This document shows positions 2,462 to 45,214 of a DNA stretch of 64,000 bases, one piece after another. The notes beneath the pieces were generated by a model. The model was not told the origin of the DNA. It did no database searches and worked only from the letters and a program-made list of their open reading frames with translations. Each line of letters begins with the position of its first letter. The first letter of the stretch is position 1. Position numbers and translations under genes: made by a program. Source of the stretch: a virus. The stretch covers positions 62,001 to 126,000 of IMG/VR virus record IMGVR_UViG_3300036398_003487, one strand, 5' to 3'.

Positions 2462-2468
2462 TATTTAT
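2462..2468 (+). promoter_or_regulatory. TATTTAT box, 14 bases before the 2483 gene
   Basis: TATTTAT on the plus strand in the divergent spacer between 2435 and 2483. This spacer therefore holds one box for each direction. Confidence 0.5.
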
Positions 2469-2482: not shown

Positions 2483-3352
2483 ATGGAATTTAATAAAGAA
2501 TATTTTTCATCACCTTATTACTTCTATATTAAAGAGGGTAAAGATACTATTTCCGTTTATTTTAGTGTCAGCAATACTTTAACTGAAGCTAGAAAAAAAG
2601 ATGAGGTTGTAAAATTTAAGAAAAAAGATAAAAAAGAAATTGAAAAAACAATTTCAAAAATTCAAAAAGAAAAAAAATTAAAAAATAATTCTGACGTTAA
2701 AAAAACTTTAAATAAGAAAAAAGATGAGTTAGAAGAATTAGTTGATTATGATGGGTCTTTTTTGAGTTCAAAAATTCCAATTTATAACCCATATCTTTCA
2801 CCAAAAAGTACAATGGACCAAGAGGTTGTTGCAACAAGACAAACAAACAATCCTATTACTCGTGGATATCGTGTTTATTGGGGTGAAGGTGAGGAAGAAA
2901 CTGACGAGGTAATTAATGAAACTGATTTTTCTGACGCATTTGGTTATGAAGAAACAAAAGACAAAAACGGCCCTGAGACATTTAAAACATTTGTTAAAGA
3001 ATTAGGTTTAGATAAAGATGAGGCGGCTGAAAGAACAAGACAACAAGGTAAAGAACCTGATGCTAAAAAACATAGAAAAAAATTAGAAAGAGTTCCCAAA
3101 AAAATTAAAAAACAAAAAGGTTTTATTGATAGAATGACCATTTCTGAAAAAGAAAATTTGGAAGAAGAAAAGAAAGCTATGATGAAAAAAATGGTTGAGG
3201 ATATTGTTCTTAAGAAAAAATCAGGTGATAAGGAAATGGCTAAAAAAAATGGTTTAAGTAAAGTTCTTACAAAAAATTTAGAAAATATTAAAAAATTAGC
3301 AGACAAAGAAGGTATTGAAATAAATGACTTGGTTAAAATATTGAAGAAATGA
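2483..3352 (+). CDS. Lys/Glu-rich protein of unknown function
   Basis: 289 residues, extremely charged. Residues about 35-90 and 190-289 are rich in Lys and Glu and likely helical or coiled-coil. A short uncharged segment near residue 95 (SSKIPIYNPYLSP) and a stretch with TRGYRVYWGEGEE separate them. No enzyme motif is visible. The last helix (IKKLADKEGIEINDLVKILKK) resembles a small DNA- or protein-binding end module. The stop overlaps the next start by four bases (ATGA), so the two genes are probably translated together. It sits beside a virion protein and has its own TATTTAT box, so a late, possibly structural role is inferred. Confidence 0.6.
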   Translation: MEFNKEYFSSPYYFYIKEGKDTISVYFSVSNTLTEARKKDEVVKFKKKDKKEIEKTISKIQKEKKLKNNSDVKKTLNKKKDELEELVDYDGSFLSSKIPIYNPYLSPKSTMDQEVVATRQTNNPITRGYRVYWGEGEEETDEVINETDFSDAFGYEETKDKNGPETFKTFVKELGLDKDEAAERTRQQGKEPDAKKHRKKLERVPKKIKKQKGFIDRMTISEKENLEEEKKAMMKKMVEDIVLKKKSGDKEMAKKNGLSKVLTKNLENIKKLADKEGIEINDLVKILKK

Positions 3353-3765
3353 ATAGTGAAATGTATGGAAATCAATACGAAGTTCCACACAACGTATTAA
3401 CGTCTTTAGAAAATTTTAAAGACGAAAAAACTATACATAATATTTTTACAAATGGTTATCTAACATATCAAAATATGAAAAAAATACTTCATGATATTGA
3501 TAATGGTAAATTTGGTGATAAAAATTTAAGTACTTTAAAATCATTTATAACACAAAATTTAGGTTCCGATAGAGGGAGTATTGATAGACAAAAGAGAGAT
3601 GCCTCTGATTCGGGAATGCAAAACCAATATTTATCAACACATAGAAAAGATAATGTTAGAGATTTAAATAGACCGTCTAAAAGTCATCACTCTATTTACG
3701 AGAACTATAATAAAGAAGTTGTAGATAACCTTAAAAGAATAAACGAAATAATGAAAAAATTATAA
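3349..3765 (+). CDS. Hypothetical protein
   Basis: 138 residues, no recognised family. The N-terminal half is mixed alpha/beta in appearance. Residues 75-110 are polar and basic with several Arg-Asp pairs, and the C-terminus (NYNKEVVDNLKRINEIMKKL) is an amphipathic helix. The first ATG overlaps the upstream stop by four bases; a second ATG at 3361 is possible. It belongs to a run of five closely spaced plus-strand genes ending at the terminator at 5042. Confidence 0.6.
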   Translation: MNSEMYGNQYEVPHNVLTSLENFKDEKTIHNIFTNGYLTYQNMKKILHDIDNGKFGDKNLSTLKSFITQNLGSDRGSIDRQKRDASDSGMQNQYLSTHRKDNVRDLNRPSKSHHSIYENYNKEVVDNLKRINEIMKKL

Positions 3766-3769: not shown

Positions 3770-4063
3770 ATGGCATCAAAAGTCCCAATAGATTTAAACC
3801 AACCAGATAACGCTTTAAGTGCAATTGCTGAAAAAGTTAGAAAAGATTTGGTTACAAGAAATGATTACAAATCAAACGCAAATGAATATGGGGTAACTAA
3901 TCCTGACGCAATCTCTGATGGAGATGGTAAAGGAAGAGGAACAGGAGTATTCTTAGACATATTTAATGGAGGTACATCAACTGACCAAGTTACTAAAGTT
4001 GATAACATCAAACTAAACAAATATAGTTCAAAAAAACCTTATAACTCACCTTCGACAGAATGA
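3770..4063 (+). CDS. Hypothetical protein
   Basis: 97 residues. It starts MASKVPIDLNQPDNALSAIA, then a short helix and a Gly/Asp-rich loop (ISDGDGKGRGTGVF), ending in a polar tail. No family recognised. Start is four bases after the upstream stop, and the stop overlaps the WYL gene by four bases. Co-transcription with both neighbours is likely. Confidence 0.6.
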   Translation: MASKVPIDLNQPDNALSAIAEKVRKDLVTRNDYKSNANEYGVTNPDAISDGDGKGRGTGVFLDIFNGGTSTDQVTKVDNIKLNKYSSKKPYNSPSTE

Positions 4064-4452
4064 AGCTTTACAACGTCATAAAACAACTTATTTTTGAAGC
4101 AAGTAGTGAAGAAATTACTAATGCAATTAAGAATAGGCATGTTGCAACAATTTACTATGACGGGGAAGATAATGGAGGTAAAGGACTTCGTGTTATTGAA
4201 CCTTTTTGTTACGGAACATCAAAAAGAGGTAACAAAGTAATAAGAGCGTGGGAGAGAGAAGGGGCGTCACACACCGCAACCATAGGTGACCAACCATTAC
4301 CAGGTTGGAGATTATTTAGGGTTGATAGGATTGGAAGCTTCTCGTATGACCCACGTGAAAAATTTGATATAATAAGACCAAGTTATAATCCTGAAGATAA
4401 AGGAATGGTCGGATTAAAAGTATGTACAAAATTTGAATTAGAAAATGAATGA
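4060..4452 (+). CDS. WYL-domain protein with a capsid-targeting-like leader
   Basis: 130 residues. After a short leader (MKLYNVIKQLIFE, then AS) the chain follows a WYL-domain pattern: an N-terminal helix with AIKNRH, a strand with ATIYYDG, the GLRVIEPFCYG segment, then WRLFRVDRIGSF. WYL domains bind ligands or nucleic acid and are commonly part of transcription regulators, but no helix-turn-helix is present, so this is a stand-alone WYL domain. The leader closely resembles those of T4 internal proteins (MKTYQEFIAEA), which are cut after Glu by gp21. Packaging and delivery with the DNA is inference. The stop overlaps the next start by eight bases. Confidence 0.65.
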   Translation: MKLYNVIKQLIFEASSEEITNAIKNRHVATIYYDGEDNGGKGLRVIEPFCYGTSKRGNKVIRAWEREGASHTATIGDQPLPGWRLFRVDRIGSFSYDPREKFDIIRPSYNPEDKGMVGLKVCTKFELENE

Positions 4453-5020
4453 TTTAATGCAAAAACTAATGTTGTCTAAAGAAATTATGAATAGACACGA
4501 CGAAATGGACAAAGGGAATCCATCTAAAAGGTCATCAACAACTCAACAATTAGTTAGAGAATATGATGAATCACCTATACCTGCAACATATAATATACCA
4601 CAAGAATTTTTACAAAAAGAACAACCAAAGTCAGTCGCACCAAAAGTTATGACAGAAGATAGAATAAAAAATTCTAAACTACCTGACGCAATCAAAAGAT
4701 TAATGATGGAACACCCAATAGACCAACCACAACAATATCAGGCAACAATCTCAGATGATATTATTGAAAAGGCGGCAAGGTTAATGGGAAATAAACAACC
4801 TGTTTCAGAGTCAACTCAACAACAACCAAGACAACAAAATACATCATTTAATTTATCCGCATCAGATATAAAGAAAATTGTTAGGGAAACTGTTGAAGAA
4901 GTATTAAGTGAGAATGGATTAATGGTTGAGTCAACTCAAAAATCTAATGAATTAATGACAATTAAAGTTGGTAAACATATCTTTGAAGGTAAAATTTCAA
5001 AAGTTAAAAAAGTTCAATAA
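4445..5020 (+). CDS. Hypothetical protein, Gln-rich centre
   Basis: 191 residues. The middle (about 45-135) is rich in Pro, Gln and Ser and probably disordered. An amphipathic helix follows (SDIKKIVRETVEEVLSENGL), then a short beta-like C-terminus (TIKVGKHIFEGKISKVKKV). The helix-plus-strand end resembles C-terminal assembly modules of phage structural proteins, but no family was recognised. Last gene before the terminator at 5042. Confidence 0.6.
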   Translation: MNDLMQKLMLSKEIMNRHDEMDKGNPSKRSSTTQQLVREYDESPIPATYNIPQEFLQKEQPKSVAPKVMTEDRIKNSKLPDAIKRLMMEHPIDQPQQYQATISDDIIEKAARLMGNKQPVSESTQQQPRQQNTSFNLSASDIKKIVRETVEEVLSENGLMVESTQKSNELMTIKVGKHIFEGKISKVKKVQ

Positions 5021-5075: not shown

Positions 5076-5106
5076 TTGAATTATAACATTCTTTCATTTA
5101 TCTTTT
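5076..5106 (+). promoter_or_regulatory. Host-type promoter of the glycan island
   Basis: TTG at 5076-5078, 20-base spacer, then TATCTTTT at 5099-5106. This matches the Bacteroidota TTG / TAnnTTTG layout with the final G changed to T. The first glycosyltransferase ATG follows five bases later. Confidence 0.55.
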
Positions 5107-5111
5107 TCATT

Positions 5112-6326
5112 ATGAAAGAAAAAATTAAAGTTTTAGTTATACCTTCTGACACTACTGGAGTTGGGAGATTTAGGTCAATCACACCACACACTCACTTACA
5201 ATCAAAATATGGGGAGGATTTTCATGTCGACATTGAATTTAATCCTGATTTAACTAATATAAATTATTTTAAAGATTACCAAATAATTCATTATCATCGT
5301 TCTCTTGGTCAAGATATGGATAAGTCTGTACAAATAGTACCAATTTTAAATTCAATGGGTATTATTACTGTATGTGATTTAGATGATTACTGGTTACCAG
5401 GAAAAGAACATCCTCTTCATCAGTTGATTGTTCAAGAAAAAATACACGAAAAAATTGTTGCAAATTTAAAAGTTGCTAAATATGTAACAACTACTACTGA
5501 GTTATTTGCGGATGAAATAAAAAAACATAATAAAAATGTTGTAATTTTCCCTAATGCGATTGACCATAAAGAGGCTCAATTTAATGAGCCGACTGAAGAA
5601 TCTGACTTGGTAAGAGTTGGGTGGTTAGGTGGTTCATCACATTTACACGATTTGATGTTACTTGATGGTATGGTATCTAAACTTTCTGATATTCAGAAAA
5701 ATTTACAGTTTGTTGTTTGTGGTTTTGATACACGTGGTATGATGACTGAGATTAATCAGGCAACAGGTGAACAAACAAGAAGACCAATTAAACCACACGA
5801 AACCGTATGGTATGATTACGAAAAGATTTTTACAAATAACTATTCAATAGTTACACCTGAGTATAAAAAACACTTGGAGTTATTTGTTCAGACACCTTAT
5901 GAAAATGAACAAAACCAACCATATAGAAGAGTTTGGACAAAACCTGTAACATCTTACGCTCGTAATTACTCTAAATTTGATATATCTTTGGCACCGATTA
6001 AACAACATATGTTTAACAAAGTAAAATCACAACTTAAAGTTATTGAGGCAGGTTTTTATAAGAAAGCGTTAATTGCGACTAACTATGGGCCTTATACTAT
6101 TGATTTAAAACATTCATTAAAGAATGGTGAGTTTACAGATGGAAACGCTCTTTTAGTTGATGACGTAAGAAATCATAGTGATTGGGCAAAATACATTAAG
6201 AAATTAGTTCAGAACCCAAACATGAGAATTGATATGGGTGAAAGACTATATGAATATGTATCTAAACACTATAGTTTAGATGTGGTAACAAAAACAAGAG
6301 CAGAATTTTATAAATCAATCGTATGA
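5112..6326 (+). CDS. GT-B-fold glycosyltransferase
   Basis: 404 residues from ATG at 5112. A TTG at 5076 would add a hydrophobic 12-residue extension that falls on the promoter, so it is not chosen. The protein begins MKEKIKVLVIPSDTTGVGRF, a typical first strand and Gly loop of a GT4-like enzyme. It continues with a CDLDDYW motif, TTTTELFADEI (the usual start of the interdomain strand), FPNAID, and a C-terminal sugar-nucleotide domain (RVGWLGGSSHLHDL; KVIEAGFYKKALIATNYGPY). It would transfer a sugar from a nucleotide donor in the cytoplasm; donor and acceptor are not predictable. First gene of the glycan island. The stop overlaps the exonuclease start. Confidence 0.8.
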   Translation: MKEKIKVLVIPSDTTGVGRFRSITPHTHLQSKYGEDFHVDIEFNPDLTNINYFKDYQIIHYHRSLGQDMDKSVQIVPILNSMGIITVCDLDDYWLPGKEHPLHQLIVQEKIHEKIVANLKVAKYVTTTTELFADEIKKHNKNVVIFPNAIDHKEAQFNEPTEESDLVRVGWLGGSSHLHDLMLLDGMVSKLSDIQKNLQFVVCGFDTRGMMTEINQATGEQTRRPIKPHETVWYDYEKIFTNNYSIVTPEYKKHLELFVQTPYENEQNQPYRRVWTKPVTSYARNYSKFDISLAPIKQHMFNKVKSQLKVIEAGFYKKALIATNYGPYTIDLKHSLKNGEFTDGNALLVDDVRNHSDWAKYIKKLVQNPNMRIDMGERLYEYVSKHYSLDVVTKTRAEFYKSIV

Positions 6327-7021
6327 TAAAGCACCCATTACACAAAATCTTATTTATTGACATTGAAACTGTAGGGGTTTCAAGTAATTATGAAAATTTT
6401 AAAAAGGATTATCCTGAACTTCATTTCCAGTTTGTTAATTACTTAGATTGGTTTCAAAAAAGGTTTCCTGAAGACGCTGAAAAAAGTATTGACGAAATCT
6501 TTGTTAATCGAGCGGCTTTAGTTCCTGAGTTTTCAAAGATTGTTTGTGTTTCAGTAGGATTTCTTGACCCTAAAGGTGATATTAAAAAACAAAGTTTTTT
6601 TAACTCAGATGAAAAAGCGTTACTTACAGATGTTAACACATTATTAAATCGAGTTGATAAGTTAGGTTTTATCCTTTGTGGACATAATCTTAAAAACTTT
6701 GATATCCCTGTATTGGCAAAAAGAATGTTAGTTAATGGTATTTTACCATCATCAATACTTCCATCTTATGACACTAAACCGTGGGAGATTAAAGCAATTG
6801 ATACAAAAGAAATTTGGCAATATGGACAATTTGGAGCGATAAGTTCATTAGAATTAATGTGTGTTTCACTTGGTATTGGAACTTCTAAAAATATGGAAGT
6901 AACAGGAAATAAAGTTCATAACGCATTTTGGAATGAAAACAAATACCAAGAAATTCAAGAATATTGTGAAAAAGATGTTGAGGTATTAATAAAAGTTTTA
7001 ATAAAATTAACAAACTTATGA
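6323..7021 (+). CDS. DEDDy 3'-5' exonuclease (PolB-like)
   Basis: 232 residues with the three exonuclease motifs of the RNase H-like DEDD superfamily: Exo I FIDIET (Asp13, Glu15), Exo II GHNLKNFDIP (Asp near 128) and Exo III YCEKDVEVL (Tyr and Asp near 214-218). The Tyr four residues before Asp marks the DEDDy branch, as in the predicted PolB-like exonucleases of Bacteroidota. It has no polymerase domain. A role in replication, repair or host DNA breakdown is likely. It sits between glycosyltransferases and overlaps both the preceding gene and the dUTPase by four bases. Confidence 0.85.
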   Translation: MIKHPLHKILFIDIETVGVSSNYENFKKDYPELHFQFVNYLDWFQKRFPEDAEKSIDEIFVNRAALVPEFSKIVCVSVGFLDPKGDIKKQSFFNSDEKALLTDVNTLLNRVDKLGFILCGHNLKNFDIPVLAKRMLVNGILPSSILPSYDTKPWEIKAIDTKEIWQYGQFGAISSLELMCVSLGIGTSKNMEVTGNKVHNAFWNENKYQEIQEYCEKDVEVLIKVLIKLTNL

Positions 7022-7602
7022 GTGAAAAATTTGATTTTGCAAGAGAATTAGAAGAATTAAAAAAATTGGTTGATGACTTTAGCCAATTACAAGAACAAGA
7101 ATTAAATGATGAATTAGGGTTTGATATTAATGAATTTGAGGATGCAAATCAATTTATTGGAGATGGGAAAATTACAATAAATTTTGTTTCAACAAATGAA
7201 AAAGAATTAAATTACGCATACGAATCAGATAGTGGGTTTGATTTATATGCCAATGAAGAAGTTAAAATACCTGCGTTTGGTAGAGCTTTAGTTCCGACAG
7301 GTATTTCAGTTGATTTACCCCAAGACTTTGAGATACAAGTTAGGTCAAAAAGTGGTTTAGCAATCAATCAAGGGTTAATGGTTTTAAACTCCCCAGGAAC
7401 TGTAGATGAAGGTTATACTGGTGAAATTAAAGTCATTATTTTTAATACAAACAACCATGAATTTGTAATAACAAAAGGTATGAAAGTCGCTCAAGCGGTA
7501 GTTGCAAGATGTATTACTGGTAGATGGGTTAATTTAAAAAAAGTAGATAAAATAGAAAATAAAGATAGAGGTAGTAAAGGTTTTGGGAGTACAGGAATAT
7601 GA
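7018..7602 (+). CDS. dut: dUTP diphosphatase (trimeric type)
   Basis: 194 residues. All five conserved dUTPase motifs can be seen: I DSGFDLYA (71-78), II RSKSGLA (109-115), III GTVDEGYTGEIKV (127-139), IV KGMKVAQAVV (153-162) and V RGSKGFGSTG (184-193). The enzyme hydrolyses dUTP to dUMP and pyrophosphate, keeping uracil out of phage DNA and feeding dTMP synthesis. The first 55 residues form an extra acidic, helical extension not present in a standard trimeric dUTPase of about 150 residues. The extension may mediate a partner contact (inference). Confidence 0.95.
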   Translation: MSEKFDFARELEELKKLVDDFSQLQEQELNDELGFDINEFEDANQFIGDGKITINFVSTNEKELNYAYESDSGFDLYANEEVKIPAFGRALVPTGISVDLPQDFEIQVRSKSGLAINQGLMVLNSPGTVDEGYTGEIKVIIFNTNNHEFVITKGMKVAQAVVARCITGRWVNLKKVDKIENKDRGSKGFGSTGI

Positions 7603-9236
7603 TAACAATTGGATATAGTACAAGAAATTCTAATCCTCAATTTCAAGAGTATCTAAAAAAATCTTCAGGTCATCCAAAGGTACAAATTATTGAGAAAGTT
7701 AATAACGGTGAAAAAAATCTTTCAGAAGTTTATAATGAAATAATTTCAGAATCAATTTTTGATATTGTTGTATTATGTCATGACGATATTTATTTTGACA
7801 CGTCAAATTGGGCTTCAAAATTAGTTAAACAATTTGAAAGAAATGATGATTTTGGAATTTTAGGTATGGCAGGCACAACTGAAATGCCTAAAAGTGGAAT
7901 GTGGTGGGAAGACCGTACAAAAATGTTTGGGATAGTCAATCATGAATCTGAAGGTAAAAAATGGGAATCAAAATATTCTGATTCATTAGGTAATGATATA
8001 AGAGAAGTTGTGGTTGTTGATGGTGTTTTTATAGCATTAAATAAACAAAAAATTAAATCTAAGTTTGATGAAACCGTTGATGGTTTTCACATGTATGATG
8101 TGAATTTTTGTTTTAAAAACAATATTGAAGGGGTAAAAATTGGTGTGTTAACTAATATTCGTATTACTCACAAATCAATAGGTATGACCAATCAAAAATG
8201 GGAAGATAATAGAAAACTTTTTGTTGAAAAATACTCAGAATACTTACCTAAAAAAATAAAATTTACCGAAAATAATAAATTAAAAGTTTTAATTAGTTGT
8301 TTGTTTTTCCAAAAATTTACAGGTTCTGAAATGTATGTTTTTGAATTGGCAAAAAATTTAGTAAAACAGAATTGTGATGTGACTGTGGTTGCGTCTGAAA
8401 CAAATGGGCCTTTGGTTTTAATGGCAACTAAATTAGGTATTAAAGTTAAAAACATTAAAGATACACCAGGTTTTAAAATGGGAGATGGTAAATGGGTAAC
8501 AATGACTGAAAGAGGCCCTGAACCTTCAGTTCCAAACAAATTTTATCAAGTAGATACCCCTCATTTTGATATCATTCATTGTCAACATAAACCAATTGTT
8601 GATATTATGAATATGTTATATCCAACGATTGATAAAATTTGTACAATTCATTCTGAAGTAATTGAACTTGAAAATCCTGTAATTCACAATAGTATTAAAA
8701 AATACATTGCAATACGTCCTGAAATTAAAAAACATATTATTACTAATTTTAATATTTCGGAAGATATTGTAGACATAACTTACAATCCAATTGATGAAAC
8801 TAAATTTTATAATAAAAATTTAAAGTCTGAAAATTATATTTTGTTTGTTGGTTCTATCGATTACCTGAGGAAAAATACAATATATGATTTAGTAACGTTA
8901 TCAAAAGAAGAAAATAAAGAACTTTGGTTAGTCGGTGAAAATAAAGACACATATTTAACCAATTTATTAAAAAATTCACATGTTAAACATTTCCCACCAA
9001 CGTTAGAAGTTGATAAATATATTCACAAATGTACAGAAACTGCAGGTATTTTATTAGGTAGAACTACCATTGAAGGTTGGATGTGTGGTAAATCAGGTTG
9101 GATTTATAATGTAGACAATTATGGTAATATTATTAATAAAAAATTATATAATGTACCCGATGATTTAGAAAAATTTAAATCTTCTGAAGTTTCAAAATTT
9201 ATTAAAAAGAAATATATAGAATTATTAAACAAATGA
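7599..9236 (+). CDS. Two-domain glycosyltransferase (GT-A-like plus GT-B-like)
   Basis: 545 residues that look like two fused enzymes. Residues 1-215 resemble a GT-A fold: ITIGYSTRNSNPQF, VVLCHDDIYFDT (an acidic metal-binding-like motif), GILGMAGTTEMP, and VVDGVFIALNK with FHMYDVNFCFK near the acceptor side. Residues 225-545 resemble a GT4-type GT-B enzyme: KVLISCLFFQKFTGSEMYVFELA, DIIHCQHKP, TYNPIDETKF, LFVGSIDYLRKN and ILLGRTTIEGWMCGKSGW. A fusion would let one polypeptide add two successive sugars. The stop overlaps the wecB start by four bases. Confidence 0.8.
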   Translation: MITIGYSTRNSNPQFQEYLKKSSGHPKVQIIEKVNNGEKNLSEVYNEIISESIFDIVVLCHDDIYFDTSNWASKLVKQFERNDDFGILGMAGTTEMPKSGMWWEDRTKMFGIVNHESEGKKWESKYSDSLGNDIREVVVVDGVFIALNKQKIKSKFDETVDGFHMYDVNFCFKNNIEGVKIGVLTNIRITHKSIGMTNQKWEDNRKLFVEKYSEYLPKKIKFTENNKLKVLISCLFFQKFTGSEMYVFELAKNLVKQNCDVTVVASETNGPLVLMATKLGIKVKNIKDTPGFKMGDGKWVTMTERGPEPSVPNKFYQVDTPHFDIIHCQHKPIVDIMNMLYPTIDKICTIHSEVIELENPVIHNSIKKYIAIRPEIKKHIITNFNISEDIVDITYNPIDETKFYNKNLKSENYILFVGSIDYLRKNTIYDLVTLSKEENKELWLVGENKDTYLTNLLKNSHVKHFPPTLEVDKYIHKCTETAGILLGRTTIEGWMCGKSGWIYNVDNYGNIINKKLYNVPDDLEKFKSSEVSKFIKKKYIELLNK

Positions 9237-10291
9237 AAAAAACAATTATAACTATCACCGGTATTAGACCCGATTTTATAAGAATGTCTGAAATTTTTAA
9301 AAAATTAGATAACAATTTTAATCATATATTAATACATACAGGACAACATTATGATAAAATGTTATCCGATGTATTTTTTGATGAGTTATCAATACGTAAA
9401 CCTGATTTTAATTTAGAAATCGGCTCAAAAGGAAAAGAACATTTTCATCAACAAGCTGATTTATCTGTTAAAATTATTGACTTAATTCGTAATGAAAATA
9501 TAAATCCTGATTTAATAATTTTTTTAGGTGATTCAAATTCGGCTTTAGCATCGGTACCTCTTAAAAAAGAGGGGTATAAAATCGCCCACATTGAGGCAGG
9601 TATGAGGTCTGGTGATAAAAGAATGCTTGAAGAAATTAATAGAATTGTTTGTGACCATTGTAGCGACCTTTTGTTTGTTTATCATGATAATTACAAAGAA
9701 AAATTGATTAGAGAATCAATTAATCCAAAATCAATTTATGTTGTAGGAAATACAATTAAAGAGGTTGCAAATAAAATAGAATTAAATAAATCTAAAAAAA
9801 ATAATAAAATAATTTTAGATATTCATAGACCTGAAAATTTTAATAGTAAGGAACGTTTAAAAAACATATTAAACTATGCTAATATTTGTTCCCAAAGATT
9901 TGGGATACCTGTTGAAATGTTATCATTTAAAAGAACTATTGATAAAATATCCGAATTTAATTTAGATTTAGAAAATATTAAAGTAATTGATTTATTATCT
10001 TTTAAAAATTATATAAATGAAATGTACCATTCTAAGTTTATAATTTCAGATTCAGGTACAGCTCAAGAAGAACCTTGTTTATTTAATACTCCAGTTATTG
10101 TCCCAAGAGATTTCACTGAAAGACCTGAATCGGTTGAATCCGGATGTTCATATATGATTAATGTAAATGAATTAGATGTTTCGTGGATTGAGTCATTTAA
10201 TTATCTGTCAAATTATAACTCAAACACAGATTGGTTAGGAGATGGTAAAACATCAGACAAAATTATTGAAATATTAAAAGAAAAATTATGA
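9233..10291 (+). CDS. wecB: UDP-N-acetylglucosamine 2-epimerase (non-hydrolysing)
   Basis: 352 residues with the WecB-type layout: ITGIRPDFIRMSEI at the N-terminus, HTGQHYDKMLSD, FLGDSNSAL, HIEAGMRSGD, LEEINRIVCDH, DIHRPENF and SDSGTAQEE. Residues equivalent to the catalytic Asp, two Glu and His of the E. coli enzyme are all present. The enzyme interconverts UDP-GlcNAc and UDP-ManNAc, giving the phage its own ManNAc donor. The family is normally about 375 residues, so this one is complete. It overlaps both neighbours by four bases. Confidence 0.88.
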   Translation: MKKTIITITGIRPDFIRMSEIFKKLDNNFNHILIHTGQHYDKMLSDVFFDELSIRKPDFNLEIGSKGKEHFHQQADLSVKIIDLIRNENINPDLIIFLGDSNSALASVPLKKEGYKIAHIEAGMRSGDKRMLEEINRIVCDHCSDLLFVYHDNYKEKLIRESINPKSIYVVGNTIKEVANKIELNKSKKNNKIILDIHRPENFNSKERLKNILNYANICSQRFGIPVEMLSFKRTIDKISEFNLDLENIKVIDLLSFKNYINEMYHSKFIISDSGTAQEEPCLFNTPVIVPRDFTERPESVESGCSYMINVNELDVSWIESFNYLSNYNSNTDWLGDGKTSDKIIEILKEKL

Positions 10292-11872: not shown

Positions 11873-11876
11873 ACAT

Positions 11877-12602: not shown

Positions 12603-12626
12603 ATAATGAATAAAAAATAAAAAATA

Positions 12627-13505: not shown

Positions 13506-13506
13506 T

Positions 13507-13917
13507 ATGGAAAAAATATATTCTAAAATTAATGGTGAACTTCTTCATCAAGTTGTAAGATTATCTGATGTTATTTCTGAACGCACCGATTTAAGTGTAG
13601 ATAAAAATTATTTACAATGTGCGAGTTTAAAATTATCTAAAGGACATACATTTAAACCTCACAAACATAATATAATCCCAAGACATGATGAAAATTATAT
13701 ACCTCAAGAAAGCTGGTGTGTTATAAAAGGAAAGGTACAATGTATTTTTTATGACATTGATGATAATATAATTGCGGAACCAATATTGTCCGCAGGAGAC
13801 ATTAGTTTTACATTCAATGGTGGACACAATTATTTGATTTTAGAAGATGATACTATAGTATACGAATATAAAACAGGGCCGTATTTTGGTCAAACCATTG
13901 ATAAAACTTTTATCTAA
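13507..13917 (+). CDS. Cupin-fold protein of the polysaccharide type
   Basis: 136 residues. Cupin motif 1 is recognisable as FKPHKHN...ESWCVIKGKVQC and motif 2 as GDISFTFNGGHNYLILEDDT, ending YEYKTGPYFG. Small cupins of this kind occur in O-antigen clusters next to sugar-modifying enzymes. The metal ligands would be the histidines of PHKH and GGH. Its place directly before the acyltransferase suggests work on the same nucleotide sugar (inference). Stop and next start overlap by one base. Confidence 0.7.
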   Translation: MEKIYSKINGELLHQVVRLSDVISERTDLSVDKNYLQCASLKLSKGHTFKPHKHNIIPRHDENYIPQESWCVIKGKVQCIFYDIDDNIIAEPILSAGDISFTFNGGHNYLILEDDTIVYEYKTGPYFGQTIDKTFI

Positions 13918-28879: not shown

Positions 28880-30376
28880 ATGTCAATCCATCGTTCATAT
28901 TTTAGTAAAAACAATACCATACTTTCAAACAGTTATGTTAATACTGGTAAATCTCCGTACACACAACTTTATTTTGGTTCATCAGACACGGTAATTGCGT
29001 CACCAGGATTTAGTAGATTTATATTTGATTTAAATTTATCAGGTCTTACCCAAAAAATTCAAGACGGAGTCATATCTACAGGATGTACTGGATTTTCAGG
29101 AATAACTCATACATTAAGAATGACAAATACATCGTCATTTGATAAAGAAGGGTTATCTAATGAATATACCAGTCAAGGAAGATTAAGAGCAACTTCATTT
29201 GATTTAATTTTATTTAGAATTCCACTGACATCAGGTAATACAGGAACTGCTCAATTATGGGATGAAGGTGTTGGTTACGATTATTACGATGTCCAAAGAA
29301 CATTAAATTCTGGGAATGGTTTATTATCACCAATTGCATTACCTCAAGATAAATCATATTCACAAAGACCATCTAATTGGTTTCAAACAACAACATTAAG
29401 TGGATGGAGTACAAATGGAATATATAATAATACAACGGGAGGTAATGTTGATTATTCAGATTTAATCATCGTTGATACCCAACACTTTGAATTTGGTAAT
29501 GAGGATATTGAATTTGACATGACAAATGAAATTAATCAATATCTAACAGGTTCAACATCAGGATTTACAGGATGGGGAATTGCTTATTTACCTCAATTAG
29601 AAAATTTAACAGGATTAACTGAAAACTATTCTGTTGGATTTTTTACAAGACATACTCAAACATTTTACGAACCGTTTTTAGAAACTTCGTATAATGATTT
29701 AATATTAGATAATAGAAATTCTTTTTATTCACATAACAATAATCGTCTTTATTTATATTCTTATATTGGCGGGGTTCCAACAAGTTTAGATAATCTACCT
29801 ATTGTAACTCTTGAGAATAATCAGGGTAATGTTGTTGGGACATACACAGGTTGTCAAATAACACAAGGTATTTATCAAATAACAACAAGTGGAATAACTG
29901 TAACAACACCATGTATGTTTACGGATACTTGGTCTAATTTAGTTTATGACGGTATTTCATTACCTAATGTGGTTAATGATTTAACTGTATTACCTTATCA
30001 AGGGTATTTTACATTAGGAACACAAAGTAGAGACCCTGAATTATTTGGTTTTGATTTTTACGGTATTAAACAAGATGAAAAAATACTTAATACTGATGTT
30101 AGAAAAGTTGGTGTGATTATTAAAAAGGCATACACATCAAATCAAGTATTAACCCCTGTCACAGCATATTATAGAATATATGTTAACGAGGGAACTACTG
30201 AGGTACAAGTTCAAGATTGGACTCAAATTAATAGAGCTTCTAATGAATACTATTTTATATTTGATACAAAAGATAAAATACCAAATGAATATAATGTTGA
30301 TATTAAAGTACTAACATCAGGAGAAGTAGATACTTATAAAAAAACACTAACATTCCAAATAGTTAATAAGAAATGA
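28880..30376 (+). CDS. Virion structural protein, beta-rich
   Basis: 498 residues, predicted mostly beta. SIHRSYFSKNNTILSNSYVNTGKSP and FSRFIFDLNLSGLTQKI at the start and RLRATSFDLILFRIPL suggest a jelly-roll surface domain like the DNRLRE-type modules. The rest is rich in Thr, Gly, Tyr and Asn with few charged residues, typical of fibres and adhesins. The C-terminal 80 residues (VGVIIKKAYTSNQVLTPVTAYYRIYVNEGT) look like an Ig-like module. Probably a tail fibre or baseplate-rim protein (inference). Confidence 0.6.
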   Translation: MSIHRSYFSKNNTILSNSYVNTGKSPYTQLYFGSSDTVIASPGFSRFIFDLNLSGLTQKIQDGVISTGCTGFSGITHTLRMTNTSSFDKEGLSNEYTSQGRLRATSFDLILFRIPLTSGNTGTAQLWDEGVGYDYYDVQRTLNSGNGLLSPIALPQDKSYSQRPSNWFQTTTLSGWSTNGIYNNTTGGNVDYSDLIIVDTQHFEFGNEDIEFDMTNEINQYLTGSTSGFTGWGIAYLPQLENLTGLTENYSVGFFTRHTQTFYEPFLETSYNDLILDNRNSFYSHNNNRLYLYSYIGGVPTSLDNLPIVTLENNQGNVVGTYTGCQITQGIYQITTSGITVTTPCMFTDTWSNLVYDGISLPNVVNDLTVLPYQGYFTLGTQSRDPELFGFDFYGIKQDEKILNTDVRKVGVIIKKAYTSNQVLTPVTAYYRIYVNEGTTEVQVQDWTQINRASNEYYFIFDTKDKIPNEYNVDIKVLTSGEVDTYKKTLTFQIVNKK

Positions 30377-30891
30377 AAAAAGTAGTATTAAAAGAAAACG
30401 AATATATTAAATTATTAAAATTTGTATTATCTGAAGCTTTGTCACCAGGTGAAGATAAAATTGACATGATTTTAGATAAAATTAGTCAATCAGGAATGGA
30501 ATCAATCACACCTGAAGAAAGAGAAACTCTTGAAAAATTTACTAAAGGTATTTCAATAGAAGATGAACCGTCATCTAAAGAAGATTTTATGACTAAAGCT
30601 GGTGGTTTTTGGTCTTTTGAATTCCCAGGTATGCCGTCATTTAAATTTAGATATGAGTCAACTGAAGATACTGAAGATGAAAAAATACATACAGGATATC
30701 TAACAGTTGATGATAGTGATTACTATGGTGAAATTTATTGTGATACTGAGGGTAATTTTCAAACTTGTATGTTTGAAAATACAACTGAAGGAACTAACGT
30801 ATTTGAAGATTATGAAGGTTTAGAACACGATATTGAAGTGTTTTTAGATGTAGTCTGTAATGACCTAAAAGAAGATGATATGATTGCGTAA
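30373..30891 (+). CDS. Leader-bearing protein with a DUF6576-like segment
   Basis: 172 residues. The first 21 residues (MKKVVLKENEYIKLLKFVLSE, given to the Glu in parts: LLKFVLSE then AL) form an amphipathic leader ending in LSE. DMILDKISQSGMESITPEER is a short segment resembling the DUF6576 motif found at the end of Bacteroidota rhomboid proteins. The rest is acidic and beta-rich (FWSFEFPGMPSFKFRY; GYLTVDDSDYYGEIYCD). Overlaps the preceding gene by four bases. Candidate capsid cargo. Confidence 0.55.
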   Translation: MKKVVLKENEYIKLLKFVLSEALSPGEDKIDMILDKISQSGMESITPEERETLEKFTKGISIEDEPSSKEDFMTKAGGFWSFEFPGMPSFKFRYESTEDTEDEKIHTGYLTVDDSDYYGEIYCDTEGNFQTCMFENTTEGTNVFEDYEGLEHDIEVFLDVVCNDLKEDDMIA

Positions 30892-31809: not shown

Positions 31810-32055
31810 ATGTCAAAGTTAGATATCCAAATTAAAAAAGTATTAAAAGAAATGTCAGAAGAACCAGAATACGGAAGACTTGATAGAGGTTTAGTTCAAG
31901 ATGTTATTGATAGAATATTATCTGATGAAACAGGTGAATATAAAAATGCATTAAGAGAATTAAATTCTGAATATAATACAGGACAATACTCAAGACCTGA
32001 AAGAACTTATGAGCCACCTAAACCAGGTATTAGAGTTAGCAAAAGTATTTATTAA
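31810..32055 (+). CDS. Small leader-bearing protein
   Basis: 81 residues. MSKLDIQIKKVLKE is the leader, nearly the same as that of the 30893 protein (IKKVLKE in both). The rest is polar and charged with a Tyr/Pro-rich tail (YSRPERTYEPPKPG). It overlaps the convergent minus-strand gene by four bases, and no terminator lies between them. Confidence 0.55.
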   Translation: MSKLDIQIKKVLKEMSEEPEYGRLDRGLVQDVIDRILSDETGEYKNALRELNSEYNTGQYSRPERTYEPPKPGIRVSKSIY

Positions 32056-33002
32056 TCTAAAGCTTTCCTGATTAAAGATATTAAGACCGATTCGTTGGTC
32101 TTTTTCTTTTTAGGTTTGTATGATGTCATAACAGGTTTTTGACCCTTACCTGTTTGAGTATCTTTTTTTTCAGCCTTTCTTTTTTGTTGACAAGCCGATT
32201 GTTTTTGTGAATCAGACATTTTAGCAGCAACTCCTACCGCTCTACATTTAGGATAACCCTTTGTATCACCCTCAGGTCTACCACATGGTGGATGTTTTCC
32301 ATCTTTTTTACTACAGATATTAACCCAAGGCCCCTTAGGTTGTTTACTACCTTTTGGTTTTTTCTTTGTACCAAACCAAACTCCTAAATCTTCTTTTATA
32401 GTATGAACATCGTGTGTTGGAATCTCATAACCACTATCTTTATGTTTTTCCCAAATACCGACAGTTTTTTTAATATTATTTTTAAGATTTTTTTTCTTAG
32501 CTTTATTTGTTGTTTGATGGTTACTGTCATCAGTAAATGGTCCTAATTCTTGTTTTCTCCATTTTTTTAAACCTATTTCAATAGGACCTGAATACTCACC
32601 AGCACTTACAGAACTATTAGTACCCTCTTTTATTTTTTTATTATCAAAAACTTTTTTAAGTAGTTTTGTGTTAACAGGGTTATCATTCAAATTACTACCA
32701 TCTTCATCATTCTGAATAGGATGTTTTTTGTCTGACTTTGAAATTGCGACCGACATTTCTTCTTTTCTTTTAATACCCTTAGTATCAATATTACCATCAA
32801 GTGAATCAACATATACTTCAGCATTATCATAACCATTTAATTGTTCAGTAAAGGGCTCTAAAATATTCTTATCCCACAACTTTAATCCAGGTCTTAATGG
32901 GGCTCTATAACTACCCGCATCACCTGTCGAAGTAGATTCAACAATATATTCGTTATACTCTTTGAATTTTTTTAATATTTCTAATATAACGTTACTTTTC
33001 AT
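32052..33002 (-). CDS. Leader-bearing basic protein with a YPKC-type module and an internal repeat
   Basis: 316 residues, strongly basic. Three parts can be seen. (1) A leader ending EYIVE at residue 22. (2) Two imperfect copies of a 25-residue unit: GSYRAPLRPGLKLWDKNILEPF near residue 26 and GEYSGPIEIGLKKWRKQELGPF near 130, each shown in part. (3) A C-terminal module NICSKKDGKHPPCGRPEGD, KGYPKCRAVGVAAKMSD and KQSACQQKRKAEKK that resembles the DUF5872/YPKC family. The Cys pairs suggest zinc. A DNA-associated capsid cargo protein is plausible (inference). Confidence 0.6.
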   Translation of the reverse strand: MKSNVILEILKKFKEYNEYIVESTSTGDAGSYRAPLRPGLKLWDKNILEPFTEQLNGYDNAEVYVDSLDGNIDTKGIKRKEEMSVAISKSDKKHPIQNDEDGSNLNDNPVNTKLLKKVFDNKKIKEGTNSSVSAGEYSGPIEIGLKKWRKQELGPFTDDSNHQTTNKAKKKNLKNNIKKTVGIWEKHKDSGYEIPTHDVHTIKEDLGVWFGTKKKPKGSKQPKGPWVNICSKKDGKHPPCGRPEGDTKGYPKCRAVGVAAKMSDSQKQSACQQKRKAEKKDTQTGKGQKPVMTSYKPKKKKTNESVLISLIRKALD

Positions 33003-33344: not shown

Positions 33345-35195
33345 TTATCTTAATTCATTCAAATCGAATGTACGAACACCATCAACGATGATACGTCCAT
33401 AGAAACGGTTATTAACCATCTTCTTAGCGTAACGTGTCATAATACCCTTGATAGGAGTAAAGTTGAATGGGTTATACATTGTTGGAGTTAATTGTAATGG
33501 TACGTATGGAGCGTAGATATATCCAGTATCCAATAACGAAGTACCTTTGTGACCAATCAACACAGTGTTTGGTGGGAAGTATGGGTCACGGTATACTTGG
33601 TAACGACCACTTAATGTACCAACTCTCTCGATACCCATGTTGAATTGGTCCTGCTCAGGAGCCGCGTTTGATACGTGGAAGTATTCCAAGTCATCAAAGA
33701 TAGCACTGATTTCAGAAGATACAACAATCCAGTTAGCTCCACCTCTTAAAGTAGACTTATGGATTTGAGCTGAAATTTGGTTGATTGCAGTAATCAACGT
33801 TTGATTCCAGTCCTTTTGAGTGTAAGGAGTTGATTGGTTGTTCAGACGCTTCCATCCGTTGTAATCCCAACGTAATGTCCAAGCTGCACCTTTACGTAAG
33901 TCACGTAAAATTTCACGGTCAATTTCAGCTGCCACTTGCTCAGATAATAAAGCTGTTAATTCAGCTTCAGCATCGATGTTGTGGAACGCTGCAACGTCTT
34001 GAGCAAGTTCTGGAGACCATTGTGCTCTTAACTTTCTTTCAGTTACAGAAACTGTTACTGATTGAAGGTCGAAAGAAACTTCACCAATTTTGTCTTCAAA
34101 TTCTAACTCTTGGTAACGCTTCCAATATGCAGTAACTGCAGTGTTAGTTGTAACACCCGTTAAAGTAGTTGTGAAAGTAGTTCCAGTGTAACCATCAGGA
34201 GTAGATGCTCCACAAGAGATACATGCTGGTGTTTGTAAATCAACTTCTAAGTAGATAACACCATCAGCACTACATACATCATAGAACGAACCTCCATTTC
34301 CAGGAGTCGCTCCACCTGGCCATGTTGTAGTTTTGTTAGTACCATATTCAACAATACCTTTACCGTATTTTTGTGTAACAACACGGAATAAAAGTGGTGT
34401 AGAAGTAGTAACATTACCACCAGATGCGTTAATTCTTGCTGCTAATGCGGAAGTTGGTAATAAAGTTAAATCAGAAAGGAATGTTTCAGTATCCATTTCT
34501 TGTCCATCAGGGCCAATTAACTTACCGTCACCTACTGATGTGAAACCAGACATTACTAAAAGTAATTTTCTGTATTCACCTGAACCATATCCAGATACTA
34601 CTAATGAACCGTTTGACCAAACTACTTGGTTAGTTGCACCAGTAACCCAATACCAACCACCTTTTGAATAATCAAAAAGACCTGATGGGTTTAAACCTGG
34701 TTCATTTCCTTCATAGAATAAATCATAAAGGTTCTTTGGATACGCAGTTGAATCAGTGTAACCAGCATTTGGGTCACCAGGATAGTTTCCAGGAGAACCT
34801 ACAGGTGCTCTGTGTCCAGCTTCTCCTGAAGCTCCTTGTGTTGGAGTTGCTGCAGAATAACCTTGAATTTGAGGTACAAAGTAGAACAATTTACCGATTG
34901 GTAAGTTCATAGCTTGTACAGATACGATTTCGTTAGCTAATAATTTAGAGAACACACGTCTGATGATAGGGAATACCACAGTTTCGAATGAACCTGAATC
35001 AGCAGTTGAAGCCGCTTCGTTAATTAAGAATGATGCTTGGTTTTCATACAACTGAGCAACGTTTTCTTTTAGGTGGCCTCTAAGACCTTCAAGGAACCCT
35101 AATTTGTCCCATTTGTTTATAGTGTCTTCTTTGATAACTTTCAAGTGCTTAAGACCGATGTTACCTACTAATCCACTTTCTAATAATGCTCCCAT
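33345..35195 (-). CDS. Major capsid protein (gp23-like)
   Basis: 616 residues. The N-terminal 60 residues are helical (INKWDKLGFLEGLRGHLKENVAQLYENQ) and end SFLINE followed by AAS, closely matching the T4 gp23 processing site FLTE/A at residue 65. Maturation by the gp21-like protease would remove residues 1-60. Next, FPIIRRVFSKLLANEIVSVQAMN with IGKLFYFVPQIQG is the standard start of mature gp23. YRDPYFPPNTVLIGHKG and the ending ITRYAKKMVNNRFYG fit HK97-fold capsids of T4-like phages. About 95 residues longer than T4 gp23, with a Gly/Thr-rich insertion near residues 130-340. The position next to scaffold, protease and portal confirms it. Confidence 0.93.
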   Translation of the reverse strand: MGALLESGLVGNIGLKHLKVIKEDTINKWDKLGFLEGLRGHLKENVAQLYENQASFLINEAASTADSGSFETVVFPIIRRVFSKLLANEIVSVQAMNLPIGKLFYFVPQIQGYSAATPTQGASGEAGHRAPVGSPGNYPGDPNAGYTDSTAYPKNLYDLFYEGNEPGLNPSGLFDYSKGGWYWVTGATNQVVWSNGSLVVSGYGSGEYRKLLLVMSGFTSVGDGKLIGPDGQEMDTETFLSDLTLLPTSALAARINASGGNVTTSTPLLFRVVTQKYGKGIVEYGTNKTTTWPGGATPGNGGSFYDVCSADGVIYLEVDLQTPACISCGASTPDGYTGTTFTTTLTGVTTNTAVTAYWKRYQELEFEDKIGEVSFDLQSVTVSVTERKLRAQWSPELAQDVAAFHNIDAEAELTALLSEQVAAEIDREILRDLRKGAAWTLRWDYNGWKRLNNQSTPYTQKDWNQTLITAINQISAQIHKSTLRGGANWIVVSSEISAIFDDLEYFHVSNAAPEQDQFNMGIERVGTLSGRYQVYRDPYFPPNTVLIGHKGTSLLDTGYIYAPYVPLQLTPTMYNPFNFTPIKGIMTRYAKKMVNNRFYGRIIVDGVRTFDLNELR

Positions 35196-36917: not shown

Positions 36918-37637
36918 TTATTTTTTTAAATAATCGGAAAGTCTTCCCATTAAATCAAGCGATTTGTTAACTGTTCTTGCGGCTTTCATTTCATTTTCTT
37001 CTTGTAGGTTCTCTTCAAACGCAAATCTTCCATCAGGTTCAGTAAATAAATAAGCTCCAGGTGTTGATGGTGAAGATACCAAGTCAAAACAAATTAATTC
37101 AAAATCATCTTGAACTTCATTTTGGTCACCTACCTTTTTTAATGAACCTACCCCTCTTGATGATATACCTAACGTTACACCTAATCTTAATAGGTTTGCA
37201 GCTTGGTCACCCTTTGTTGATACAATACCTCTTTCATGAAACCCTGGTGAAGTCAGAAGTAATAGTTTACCTAATAGAACATTACCATCCCACCACATCT
37301 CTGTAATCATGTGTGATACTCTATCTAAATCTATCAATGAAGACTCAGGGTGGTTAAGTTCAGATAAGGATGTTTTCTTACCTATATAATTTTTAATATA
37401 GTTATCCGATTCTCTCTTTAGAATTCTTTCGGGATATATTCTACCATTTCTATTTGGTGTATTATATTTTTGTAGAACGGCATAAAATTCAAATGGTTTT
37501 GAATAATCTTTAAAATCCCTACTTTCTTGTAAGAATGTTTGATTATGTTTTTCTGTTGGGGAAACATATCCCGCATCCATCTCAATTAAAATACCCTTTC
37601 CTGTCTCTCTTGGACCTAATATTTTATAATTTTGCAT
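36918..37637 (-). CDS. Prohead protease (gp21-like)
   Basis: 239 residues. Serine-protease motifs of the prohead proteases are in order: LSELNHPES with His96, GISSRGVGSL with Ser160, and FDLVSSPSTPGA with Asp185. PNRNGRIYPERIL near residue 65 is also typical of the family. It cleaves the capsid protein, the scaffold and other core proteins during prohead maturation, probably after (L/I)xE. Members are about 210-240 residues, so it is complete. A TATTTAT box precedes it by 16 bases. Confidence 0.88.
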   Translation of the reverse strand: MQNYKILGPRETGKGILIEMDAGYVSPTEKHNQTFLQESRDFKDYSKPFEFYAVLQKYNTPNRNGRIYPERILKRESDNYIKNYIGKKTSLSELNHPESSLIDLDRVSHMITEMWWDGNVLLGKLLLLTSPGFHERGIVSTKGDQAANLLRLGVTLGISSRGVGSLKKVGDQNEVQDDFELICFDLVSSPSTPGAYLFTEPDGRFAFEENLQEENEMKAARTVNKSLDLMGRLSDYLKK

Positions 37638-43005: not shown

Positions 43006-44319
43006 TTAGTTGATACCTAATCCTTTTAAGAAGTCATCAAAATCCTCATCATCATCATCATCATCATCGTCGTCGTCGTCATCATCCTCATATTTTTTTA
43101 TAGTATCTTCATACTCATATCCTTTTAGTTCTTCAACAATTTCATCAACCATATCTTTCACCATTTTCTTTCCTTTTGGTGAACCTGATAAAATTTCACG
43201 AGCCATTGCAAAAAATTCGTTTGGAGTAAGTTCGGCAAACTTAACAAGGAAATACTGTTGTAAGTTTCTCTTATCGTCATCAAATAACTCATCAGGATAA
43301 GACTCACGGAACTTTTGCCAAATAACTGGACCTAATCTCATATCCCAAATTTCACCAACAACAGTATCTTGTGAGTTAATTACTGCCTCTTGTCTTGTCT
43401 TATCTTTTGGTAATCCGTATGTACCAGCAATTTCCATAACACCTTTAGCAAGTTCATGAATAAGAATTGGTAAGTTAACACCACGAGCCTTTACTGTCGG
43501 TGGGTCAGTCTTAGCATCTAACTCAGACATACCATATGTTGATTCTCCACCACCCGCCATACCTTGAACCATTGAGTCGGGCATTAACCAATAAAGTGAA
43601 TCGGCAAATGACATAAACACACCATACAAATTTAATAACCTTGGGTTAATGGCATTTAATTCTCTGTTTAACAATTCAAACATATAAGAAGATTGTTTAG
43701 CAGCTCCTTGGATAAGTGAGTTAATAAATCGTCTTTTAGCCTTTTCTAAGTCAAATTTTTCAAATGAGTCCATGAAATCTTCAAGTTGTTCTTGTTCTTC
43801 TTCAGAACCAAACATATTTTCAATTTCTTCTTCACTTGGTTCTTCACCTTTAGGAGATAACTTACTTGAGTCAATATCATTTGGTTGAACCAACTTTACA
43901 TCATATTGTAACGCTCCTTCAGGAATTGCAAATTCTTTTTGAACAACCTCAATCGCAAGTTCTTCCAAGTATTCTCTGTTTTCAGATTCTATCTGAGCAA
44001 TCTCTTGCATAGCATTCATTACCATCATTTGAAGTTGCATCATAGCATTTTGTGATGTAACATCTTGAAGGCCAGTATATCTTTTTAATCTGTTGATAAC
44101 CTCTTTAAATCTCTGTGATGCAATAAGTTGCTCAAAGTTAGATGGTTTATCCGGTCCTTCAGGTGTAATTTCAGGAAATGCTTTACTACCTGAATGAGGA
44201 GTTTCACCTTTTTCAAATTTAGATTGAATATCAGGAGCCATTCTTTCAGGTCCTTCGTATCCGATAGGTGCCTCATTAATTCGACTAACCAATCTTTTTA
44301 CTAATTGTTCTTTTTTCAT
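43006..44319 (-). CDS. Leader-bearing virion-type protein with poly-Asp C-terminus
   Basis: 437 residues from ATG at 44319, one base after the upstream stop (GTG at 44328 is the alternative). The leader MKKEQLVKRLVSRINE is followed by APIG, a good gp21-type site. The body is helical (LQMMVMNAMQEIAQIESENREYLEEL; EKAKRRFINSLIQGAA), then a conserved-looking block VNLPILIHELAKGVMEIAGTYGLP, and DLR-type helices. Near the C-terminus there are 13 Asp in a row encoded by GAT/GAC repeats. Placed next to the terminase gene, it may be a neck or head-interior protein; no family recognised. Confidence 0.6.
   Translation of the reverse strand: MKKEQLVKRLVSRINEAPIGYEGPERMAPDIQSKFEKGETPHSGSKAFPEITPEGPDKPSNFEQLIASQRFKEVINRLKRYTGLQDVTSQNAMMQLQMMVMNAMQEIAQIESENREYLEELAIEVVQKEFAIPEGALQYDVKLVQPNDIDSSKLSPKGEEPSEEEIENMFGSEEEQEQLEDFMDSFEKFDLEKAKRRFINSLIQGAAKQSSYMFELLNRELNAINPRLLNLYGVFMSFADSLYWLMPDSMVQGMAGGGESTYGMSELDAKTDPPTVKARGVNLPILIHELAKGVMEIAGTYGLPKDKTRQEAVINSQDTVVGEIWDMRLGPVIWQKFRESYPDELFDDDKRNLQQYFLVKFAELTPNEFFAMAREILSGSPKGKKMVKDMVDEIVEELKGYEYEDTIKKYEDDDDDDDDDDDDDEDFDDFLKGLGIN
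43041..43090 (-). repeat. Trinucleotide repeat encoding poly-Asp
   Basis: About 14 consecutive GAT/GAC/GAG codons on the minus strand, in two blocks: ATC units and GTC units on the plus strand. Prone to slippage; length may vary between isolates. Confidence 0.85.
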
Positions 44320-44320
44320 C

Positions 44321-45214
44321 TTACTCACCTTTTAATTTAATATTCATTTTACCAAAACTTAAATAATCAGGTAATTTACCTTTTGGTCTTGGGTCTGTGT
44401 TAGGAGCTGGTTGAAAAGGGTTTTTTCTAGGGTTTGTTGTTGTTCTTTCCTTTTCCTTAGTTTTTTCTTTTTCCTTAGTTCCCGAACCTTTTGGTTTTGG
44501 GTCAGTGTTAGGTGCCGGTTGAAAAGGATTCTTTCTTGTAGGAGTAGTTGTTTTTTCCTTTTCTTTAGTTTTTTCTTTTGTTTTTGATTCCAAAATACTT
44601 TTAATCAAATCTTTTTTAGTCATAGTTGGTCTTAAATTTTCTTCAATGATTTCTCTCATTTTTCGTTCCAAAATTACTTCATATGGATTTTTACCTTCTT
44701 TTAATGACTTTTTGACATCAAGAACACATCTTTCAAATTTCTTATCTTCACCTTTAGTGTAATCATCTTTCTTCTTACCTTCCAAACCTAATGATGATGT
44801 ACAGATAGCCCAAGGATTTTTTTCAACTTTCTTTTTTCTTTTTTTCTTACCTTCAGTCATTTCACCTTCAGCGGTAGAAATTTTTAAAACTCCGTTTTCC
44901 ACTTTAGCTGTTGACGGTTTATTAGGGTCATTTGATTTTGGAATTACAGTTCCTTTATTTTGAATGTCCGATAAAGGTATATTTGTGGTTGTTGTTACAT
45001 CTTTAGTTTGAGTAATTGCTTCTTTAGCTTCAGTTTTTTTACCACCTGAAAACATTCTTCCAATAGGTTTATCCATTTTACCATAACCAACAAATCCATG
45101 GGCATTAACCATAGATTCATATAAGGTATTAATTTGTTTTGGAGATTGTTTACTTAAATTTTCTTTAGTAAAACCTATCTCAACTAATTTTTGAATTTGT
45201 CTTTTTATTTCCAT
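44321..45214 (-). CDS. Repeat-containing basic protein with NPWAICT module
   Basis: 297 residues from ATG at 45214; a TTG at 45241 is less likely. Leader-like MEIKRQIQKLVEIGFTKENL. The centre contains KNPWAICTSSLGLEGKKKDDY and KKFERCVLDVKKSL, a two-Cys module that recurs in phage proteins of this type. The C-terminal third holds two copies of a 30-residue unit, KEKTTTPTRKNPFQPAPNTD and KERTTTNPRKNPFQPAPNTD. Very rich in Lys, Thr and Pro, probably disordered. Head-cluster location suggests a capsid-interior protein (inference). Confidence 0.55.
   Translation of the reverse strand: MEIKRQIQKLVEIGFTKENLSKQSPKQINTLYESMVNAHGFVGYGKMDKPIGRMFSGGKKTEAKEAITQTKDVTTTTNIPLSDIQNKGTVIPKSNDPNKPSTAKVENGVLKISTAEGEMTEGKKKRKKKVEKNPWAICTSSLGLEGKKKDDYTKGEDKKFERCVLDVKKSLKEGKNPYEVILERKMREIIEENLRPTMTKKDLIKSILESKTKEKTKEKEKTTTPTRKNPFQPAPNTDPKPKGSGTKEKEKTKEKERTTTNPRKNPFQPAPNTDPRPKGKLPDYLSFGKMNIKLKGE
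44380..44595 (-). repeat. Two-copy coding repeat (about 90 bases each)
   Basis: Two nearly identical stretches encoding the RKNPFQPAPNTDP unit and a preceding Lys/Glu/Thr run. They lie within one reading frame. Confidence 0.75.

Follow-up and report, generated by a model that had tools for sequence, protein, structure and literature searches.

The WYL fold is used by bacteria for single-stranded DNA sensing. In the case of PafBC, binding of single-stranded DNA requires the WYL residues R181, Y196, R204/R208 and R211/R214 (PMC11804915). Another described system close to the present locus is that of the phage T4 internal proteins, which PMC9026906 describes as basic, and for which it gives targeting propeptides of 10-19 residues and an L/I-X-E specificity of the gp21 protease. 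In the T4 record, the IPII and IPIII leaders read MKTYQEFIAE|A and IPI displays ITE|A at residue 19, the cut positions being set by that rule (PMC9026906).

Stand-alone WYL proteins of phages are known, and what is new, as far as our literature search shows, is a packaging leader on one of them. Indeed, no virion-packaged WYL protein was recognised among the titles and abstract beginnings covered by this search, subscription papers lying mostly outside it. For the protein examined here, which is encoded by a group of uncultured T4-like phages, the explanation that we favour with moderate confidence, judging from sequence, is that of a late internal head protein that would be targeted to the prohead, trimmed and then probably ejected, and that probably binds nucleic acid.

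Predicted fold and relatives of the WYL protein

The window, meaning the whole stretch of 64,000 nucleotides that was analysed, covers positions 62001-126000 of a virus record of 155,988 bases. Its WYL gene (4060..4452, + strand) encodes a stand-alone WYL-domain protein of 130 aa with a leader, and its ATG start overlaps the stop of the preceding 97-aa gene. Pfam PF13280 matches residues 17-93 of this protein at E=3.9e-4 with 20.8 bits, just missing the cut-off of 21.8; among its relatives, 25 of the 32 that were aligned hit the same family at E<=1 (best 8.1e-6), and the cut-off is exceeded in 7 of 15 records, neighbours in frame included. The PADLOC WYL model matches the window protein at 7e-6 and NCBIfam gave nothing for it. 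Neither Pfam nor AlphaFold revealed a fused helix-turn-helix or another DNA-binding part within the 130 residues, the WYL domain being the only one found.

The AlphaFold model, built from a 32-sequence alignment, has a pLDDT of 81.6 and a pTM of 0.76. In a Foldseek search of this model against the PDB the first 14 rows are WYL proteins (PafBC, BrxR, CapW, DriD), with a single row at E<=0.001, and VIA gives Z scores up to 10.5 with an rmsd of 2.9 across 88 residues, the first non-WYL row appearing at Z 7.8. Small barrels such as Sm and Hfq also appear in VIA, at Z 6.5-7.8, and were treated as common fold only. Since a family-profile search of PDB sequences matched no WYL chain, the tie to solved structures is made through the AlphaFold model, according to which the window protein is of the Sm-like WYL fold. 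In the comparison with WYL regulators that the initial annotation proposed, PafBC, BrxR, CapW and DriD are nearest.

A first scan of viral contigs with the WYL protein yielded 50 loci at 46-100% identity, and a profile scan, of which the best 80 of 355 entries were kept, mostly overlapped this set; together the 130 locus entries reduce to 65 distinct WYL proteins. The predicted mature WYL domain (4099..4449, + strand; WYL match at residues 17-93 of the whole protein) is 117 aa long with a conserved tail, and R44, E47, P48, C50, N58, W83, R84, F86, N110 and D113 are invariant in all 65 proteins. The pI of the mature protein is 7.0 in the window, with a median of 8.7 and a range of 4.9-9.7 over the 65; the near-neutral value of the window protein, set beside the basic T4 internal proteins, counts against an internal-protein reading. 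In one clade (L027-L036) the WYL protein bears a C-terminal extension of 80-90 residues.

In the phage collection the WYL relatives are all remote: they are in uncultured phages of 635-642 kb and in Flavobacterium phage MaF61, with weaker ones at 735 kb. The divergent member L046 had no match there, and the divergent member L051 matched only uncultured phages of 634-735 kb at E 0.02 or worse. For MaF61 and for one 636-kb phage, the alignment of the WYL homologue starts only at profile position 17-20, and neither shows a matching leader. No WYL match was obtained in three other phages with gp23-type capsids (immuto, Mel-JY01 and LR756508), which was counted against the favoured explanation. The lack of the WYL gene in all of five protease-bearing contigs was given no weight, since their sequence on the WYL side extends just ~6-32 kb past the protease as compared with 32.5 kb in the window.

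The window also harbours a phage tmRNA gene (52297-52691) with the tag AKLSTLGLIRTEEVTVA.

A fixed gene block preceded by a promoter-like element

The WYL gene lies in a block of five genes on the + strand. In the 50 loci, which were picked for the WYL gene and many of which are near-identical, relatives of block gene 1 (289 aa, 2483..3352) occur in 49, of gene 2 (138 aa, 3349..3765) in 44, and of gene 3 (97 aa, 3770..4063, with its stop overlapping the WYL start codon) and gene 5 (191 aa, 4445..5020) in all 50. The 289-aa protein, whose AlphaFold model is poor (pTM 0.32), carries, around residue 35, a motif of the LTE|A type that was seen by eye in 7 of 9 representatives, the other two being without that N-terminal part. 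The 191-aa protein had no match in the phage collection. Upstream of the block, before the window start, there is a head-tail adaptor-like gene (phrog_211, 3.8e-8).

Querying with the 289-aa neighbour retrieved 23 loci, all 23 with the WYL gene; 22 are on contigs already known to bear it and the one new locus, L353, serves as outgroup. The outgroup keeps the whole block, its relative of the 289-aa gene being 38% identical. Its WYL protein shows 42% identity (52/125 aligned residues) and its capsid protein 71%, so that the WYL protein diverges faster than the capsid protein.

The sequence TATTTAT is found 21 nt upstream of the block (2462..2468, + strand) and is kept at the block in relatives: of the 49 loci with the 289-aa gene, 46 have it at -19 to -24, and in the outgroup it stands 20 nt upstream. 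In two of the remaining three loci the element lies within an over-long ORF call, and the contig of the third starts close to the gene. When the sense strand is considered from 8 to 45 nt ahead of each start, TATTTAT is present at 14 of the 70 genes that were called mechanically; random windows would give 0.74, and shuffled upstream windows give a mean of 2.4 (largest 7 of 500). The element had been chosen by eye from the very regions in which it was later counted. By region, it is present before 0 of 25 genes of the metabolic run, a label set by eye, 8 of 26 in the virion region, 5 of 14 elsewhere and 1 of 5 in the block; the reverse complement gives 3, 2 and 2, without such regional bias. 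The portal, terminase and protease genes are also preceded by TATTTAT, within 70 nt upstream. In our view it is a candidate late promoter for these phages, and the common element suggests that the five-gene block would be transcribed late in infection. Late synthesis, which the initial annotation had held, together with a lack of cutting, against an early-acting injected protein, is a requirement of a packaged protein and so is by itself no objection.

Positions 5076-24052, which separate the WYL block from the genes for tail and head, are occupied by a long run of genes that by eye resemble those of glycosyltransferases, nucleotide-sugar enzymes and nucleotide enzymes.

The fixed block is likewise what one would see if the protein were packaged and cut as a component of the head core or of morphogenesis, acting in the capsid and not in host takeover. 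A head-assembly role has been suggested for T4 IPIII (PMC9026906), and this reading overlaps in its odds with the favoured one. Still, it is a possibility of rather low probability in our view: WYL domains are known from ligand sensing and single-stranded DNA binding and are not known from shells, and the faster divergence of the WYL protein relative to the capsid protein argues against it.

The leader and its predicted cleavage site

The 13-residue leader (4060..4098, + strand) reads MKLYNVIKQLIFE|AS in the window, with an I-x-E end (I-F-E|A) and a predicted cut between E13 and A14. With its 13 residues and the IFE end, the window leader agrees with the 10-19-residue length and the L/I-X-E rule of the T4 propeptides. 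The leader ends in [ILV]-x-E in every one of the 65 distinct proteins, which include one identical to the window protein, and in the outgroup; the first position of the site is I in 61, I or L in 64 and V in one. L3 and E13 are conserved in 65/65, I11 in 61/65 and K8 in 58/65, while positions 6, 9 and 12 are variable, and a Tyr at position 4, comparable with that of T4 MKTYQEFIAE, is found in 36/65. The outgroup protein begins MLLINSLIDLLTE|QVS, with the site LTE|Q, and has kept neither K2 nor K8.

Past residue 20 of the window ORFs, 366 of 18075 positions (2%) have [ILV]-x-E, so that its conservation in 65/65 leader ends is beyond chance. The bare motif count was rejected as proof of packaging: the strict form [ILV]xE[ASG] lies within the first 48 residues of 9/27 virion-region, 3/25 metabolic-run and 3/14 other ORFs, so that a near-start motif is not diagnostic. 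Across 1493 ORF entries, including many duplicate contigs, the pattern MK..K.hhxE was found outside the WYL family only in the window protein at 30884.

The enzyme that would perform the cut is encoded in the window. A gp21-type prohead protease (Peptidase_S77; 36918..37637, - strand) is identified by PF03420 at E=4.3e-26 and phrog_207 at E=1.7e-43, and a gp23-type major capsid protein (33345..35195, - strand; PF07068, E=5.8e-73) has the predicted site LINE|A; the portal and the large terminase are encoded there as well. Within the phage collection, the capsid protein is best matched in an uncultured 484-kb phage, in Microcystis phage Mel-JY01 and in Flavobacterium immuto phages. From 40 WYL-bearing records searched for the capsid protein 29 matched, and leaving aside 3 fragments without the site region, the remaining 26 and the outgroup all contain LINE (27/27), followed by A in 23, S in 3 and Q in 1. 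At the WYL site the next residue is I in 29, A in 16, V in 13, K in 5 and T in 2 of the 65 proteins. This varied P1' residue (I, V, K or T in 49/65), unlike the A or S of 26/27 capsid proteins, counts against cutting. Covariation of P1' between the WYL and capsid proteins was considered and dropped: the outgroup alone (Q and Q) hinted at it and it fails over 27 pairs.

Furthermore, three unrelated families of the window display comparable leader ends, counted by eye after removal of duplicates by script. A virion-region protein (43006..44328, - strand) has a leader of variable length ending in [IL]xE before a conserved block in 15 of 16 distinct orthologues, with one exception. The protein beside the capsid gene (32052..33002, - strand), again with a variable-length leader, ends it in [ILV]xE in 25 of 27, the two exceptions lacking the leader-end stretch. 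The third, a 172-aa protein (30373..30891, + strand), has the leader end LSE|A, with [ILV]xE in 10 of 12 and two exceptions. These leaders support a protease-defined boundary in these phages, as far as sequence can indicate.

Taken with the leader and site, the gp21-type protease and the common promoter-like element, the parallel leaders make packaging the best-supported reading of the WYL leader. The stand-alone WYL domain behind a packaging-type leader that had been noticed initially is thus upheld by the profile matches, the AlphaFold model and the 65/65 site; of the injected packaged protein proposed along with it, packaging gains support from sequence, and injection is drawn from T4 by analogy.

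A different role for the same residues comes from the AlphaFold model, in which the leader is a continuous part of helix 2-24 and may therefore be structural, a point that counts against targeting. The leader would then be the first half of a long WYL helix serving folding or dimerisation, and the protein, left unpackaged, would have its role inside the infected cell, perhaps that of a late regulator or a nucleic-acid chaperone. The helix is unbroken in the model, some WYL regulators (7tb5, 9fnd_Y) align back to its residue 1, and the residue after the site is variable. Nevertheless, we regard this as unlikely, given that L3 and E13 are held in every protein although positions 6, 9 and 12 vary, that the outgroup retains LTE without K2 or K8, that two WYL homologues are leaderless and that unrelated families have [ILV]xE leaders.

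Leader-like starts were also seen in two other proteins. The T4 gene 2 product, the DNA end protector gp2 (L248:12062-12886), begins MAIFQIINE|ST. Upstream of the window, a 501-aa protein (L055:11596-13101; record 55596-57101) with an Fe/Mn superoxide dismutase (PF02777 9.4e-42, PF00081 8.8e-22) has the start ..SRILGE|ET, and the sole GTATTTAT of that 20-kb stretch sits just before its gene start. This protein is perhaps a second packaged cargo.

Putative ligand and function

The initial annotation had suggested that the protein could sense a nucleotide. What can be retained of this is that nucleic-acid binding by the Sm-like WYL fold is plausible, the nearest folds in Foldseek and VIA including WYL proteins solved with single-stranded DNA. 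E. coli YfjR was not matched by the WYL family in hhalign and had no PDB hit in phmmer, so that the residue mapping to PafBC was manual. In this alignment to the WYL motif, PafBC R181 presumably corresponds to R44, R211 and R214 to R87 and position 90, and Y196 to V60. R44 is present in 65/65, R87 is R in 60/65 and position 90 is R or K in 63/65; position 60, read as the motif Tyr in the same manual alignment, is V in 64/65. The apparent replacement of the Tyr that PafBC requires counts against PafBC-like single-stranded DNA binding. By analogy, the protein is likely to bind nucleic acid, its arginines being kept although the motif tyrosine is apparently lost.

The further proposal that the protein blocks a host WYL regulator is without direct support. 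In contrast to the T-even internal proteins, which are highly diverse (PMC3012670), the WYL gene remains in a fixed block (50/50 loci for the 97-aa and 191-aa genes, 23/23 from the 289-aa query), which argues against a block of one host regulator. That the protein is an injected decoy for, or antagonist of, host defence WYL regulators such as BrxR and CapW is very improbable: defence loci, BREX among them, do contain or adjoin WYL regulators (PMC9122589, PMC9122601) and the nearest folds include BrxR and CapW, but the protein has a single WYL domain with no further domain found, its gene is not swapped, and one scan of cellular genomes, sensitive to close relatives only, gave 39 pattern hits and 0 WYL relatives.

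Discussion

In the sequence of events that we favour, the late-made WYL protein would be carried into the prohead core by its 13-residue leader, and the gp21-type protease would cut after E13, so that the capsid would contain an Sm-like WYL domain of 117 residues. The trimmed protein would probably be ejected with the DNA, as are the T4 internal proteins. Judging from the fold, and from the binding of single-stranded DNA by the WYL domains of PafBC and DriD, the most likely partners of its conserved arginines are single-stranded nucleic acid or DNA ends. Because the WYL gene stays in a fixed block, a general task in handling or protecting packaged or entering DNA is favoured over that of an inhibitor of one host regulator. 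A tentative and more specific version, which we hold with low confidence, is that the packed, injected and trimmed protein binds single-stranded DNA or genome ends and hides them from host exonucleases or from WYL-based DNA-damage and defence sensors.

If the favoured explanation is true, a fold with which bacteria sense single-stranded DNA in defence and DNA-damage regulation doubles as virion cargo, and the leader provides a rule to predict packed cargo in uncultured T4-like phages.

Among known proteins, similar predicted folds are found in BFVD for the small phage proteins A0A8S5VTW8, A0A6J5RNM4, Bacillus phage G Gp296 and that of Vibrio phage Vp_R1, the last being weak (E=0.083); two of these four are named WYL-domain proteins. 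A BFVD match to the DNA terminal protector of Serratia phage Muldoon was weak (E=0.16) and was set aside. MaF61 ORF126 and the WYL protein of the 636-kb phage share the homologous domain and part of the conserved tail, but they are longer (220 and 418 aa) and have no matching leader. With PafBC, DriD, CapW and BrxR the protein has in common the Sm-like WYL fold, R44, R84, R87 and R/K90 being conserved here; it differs from them in being viral, in its leader, in that no helix-turn-helix was found and in the motif Tyr, apparently Val by manual alignment. Finally, as compared with T4 IPI, IPII and IPIII, the cargo here is a WYL domain, the leader sequence is not that of T4, the gene belongs to a fixed block and the mature window protein is near-neutral, whereas the short leader, the MK start, the L/I-x-E before A, and a genome that encodes both a gp21-type protease and a gp23-type capsid are shared.
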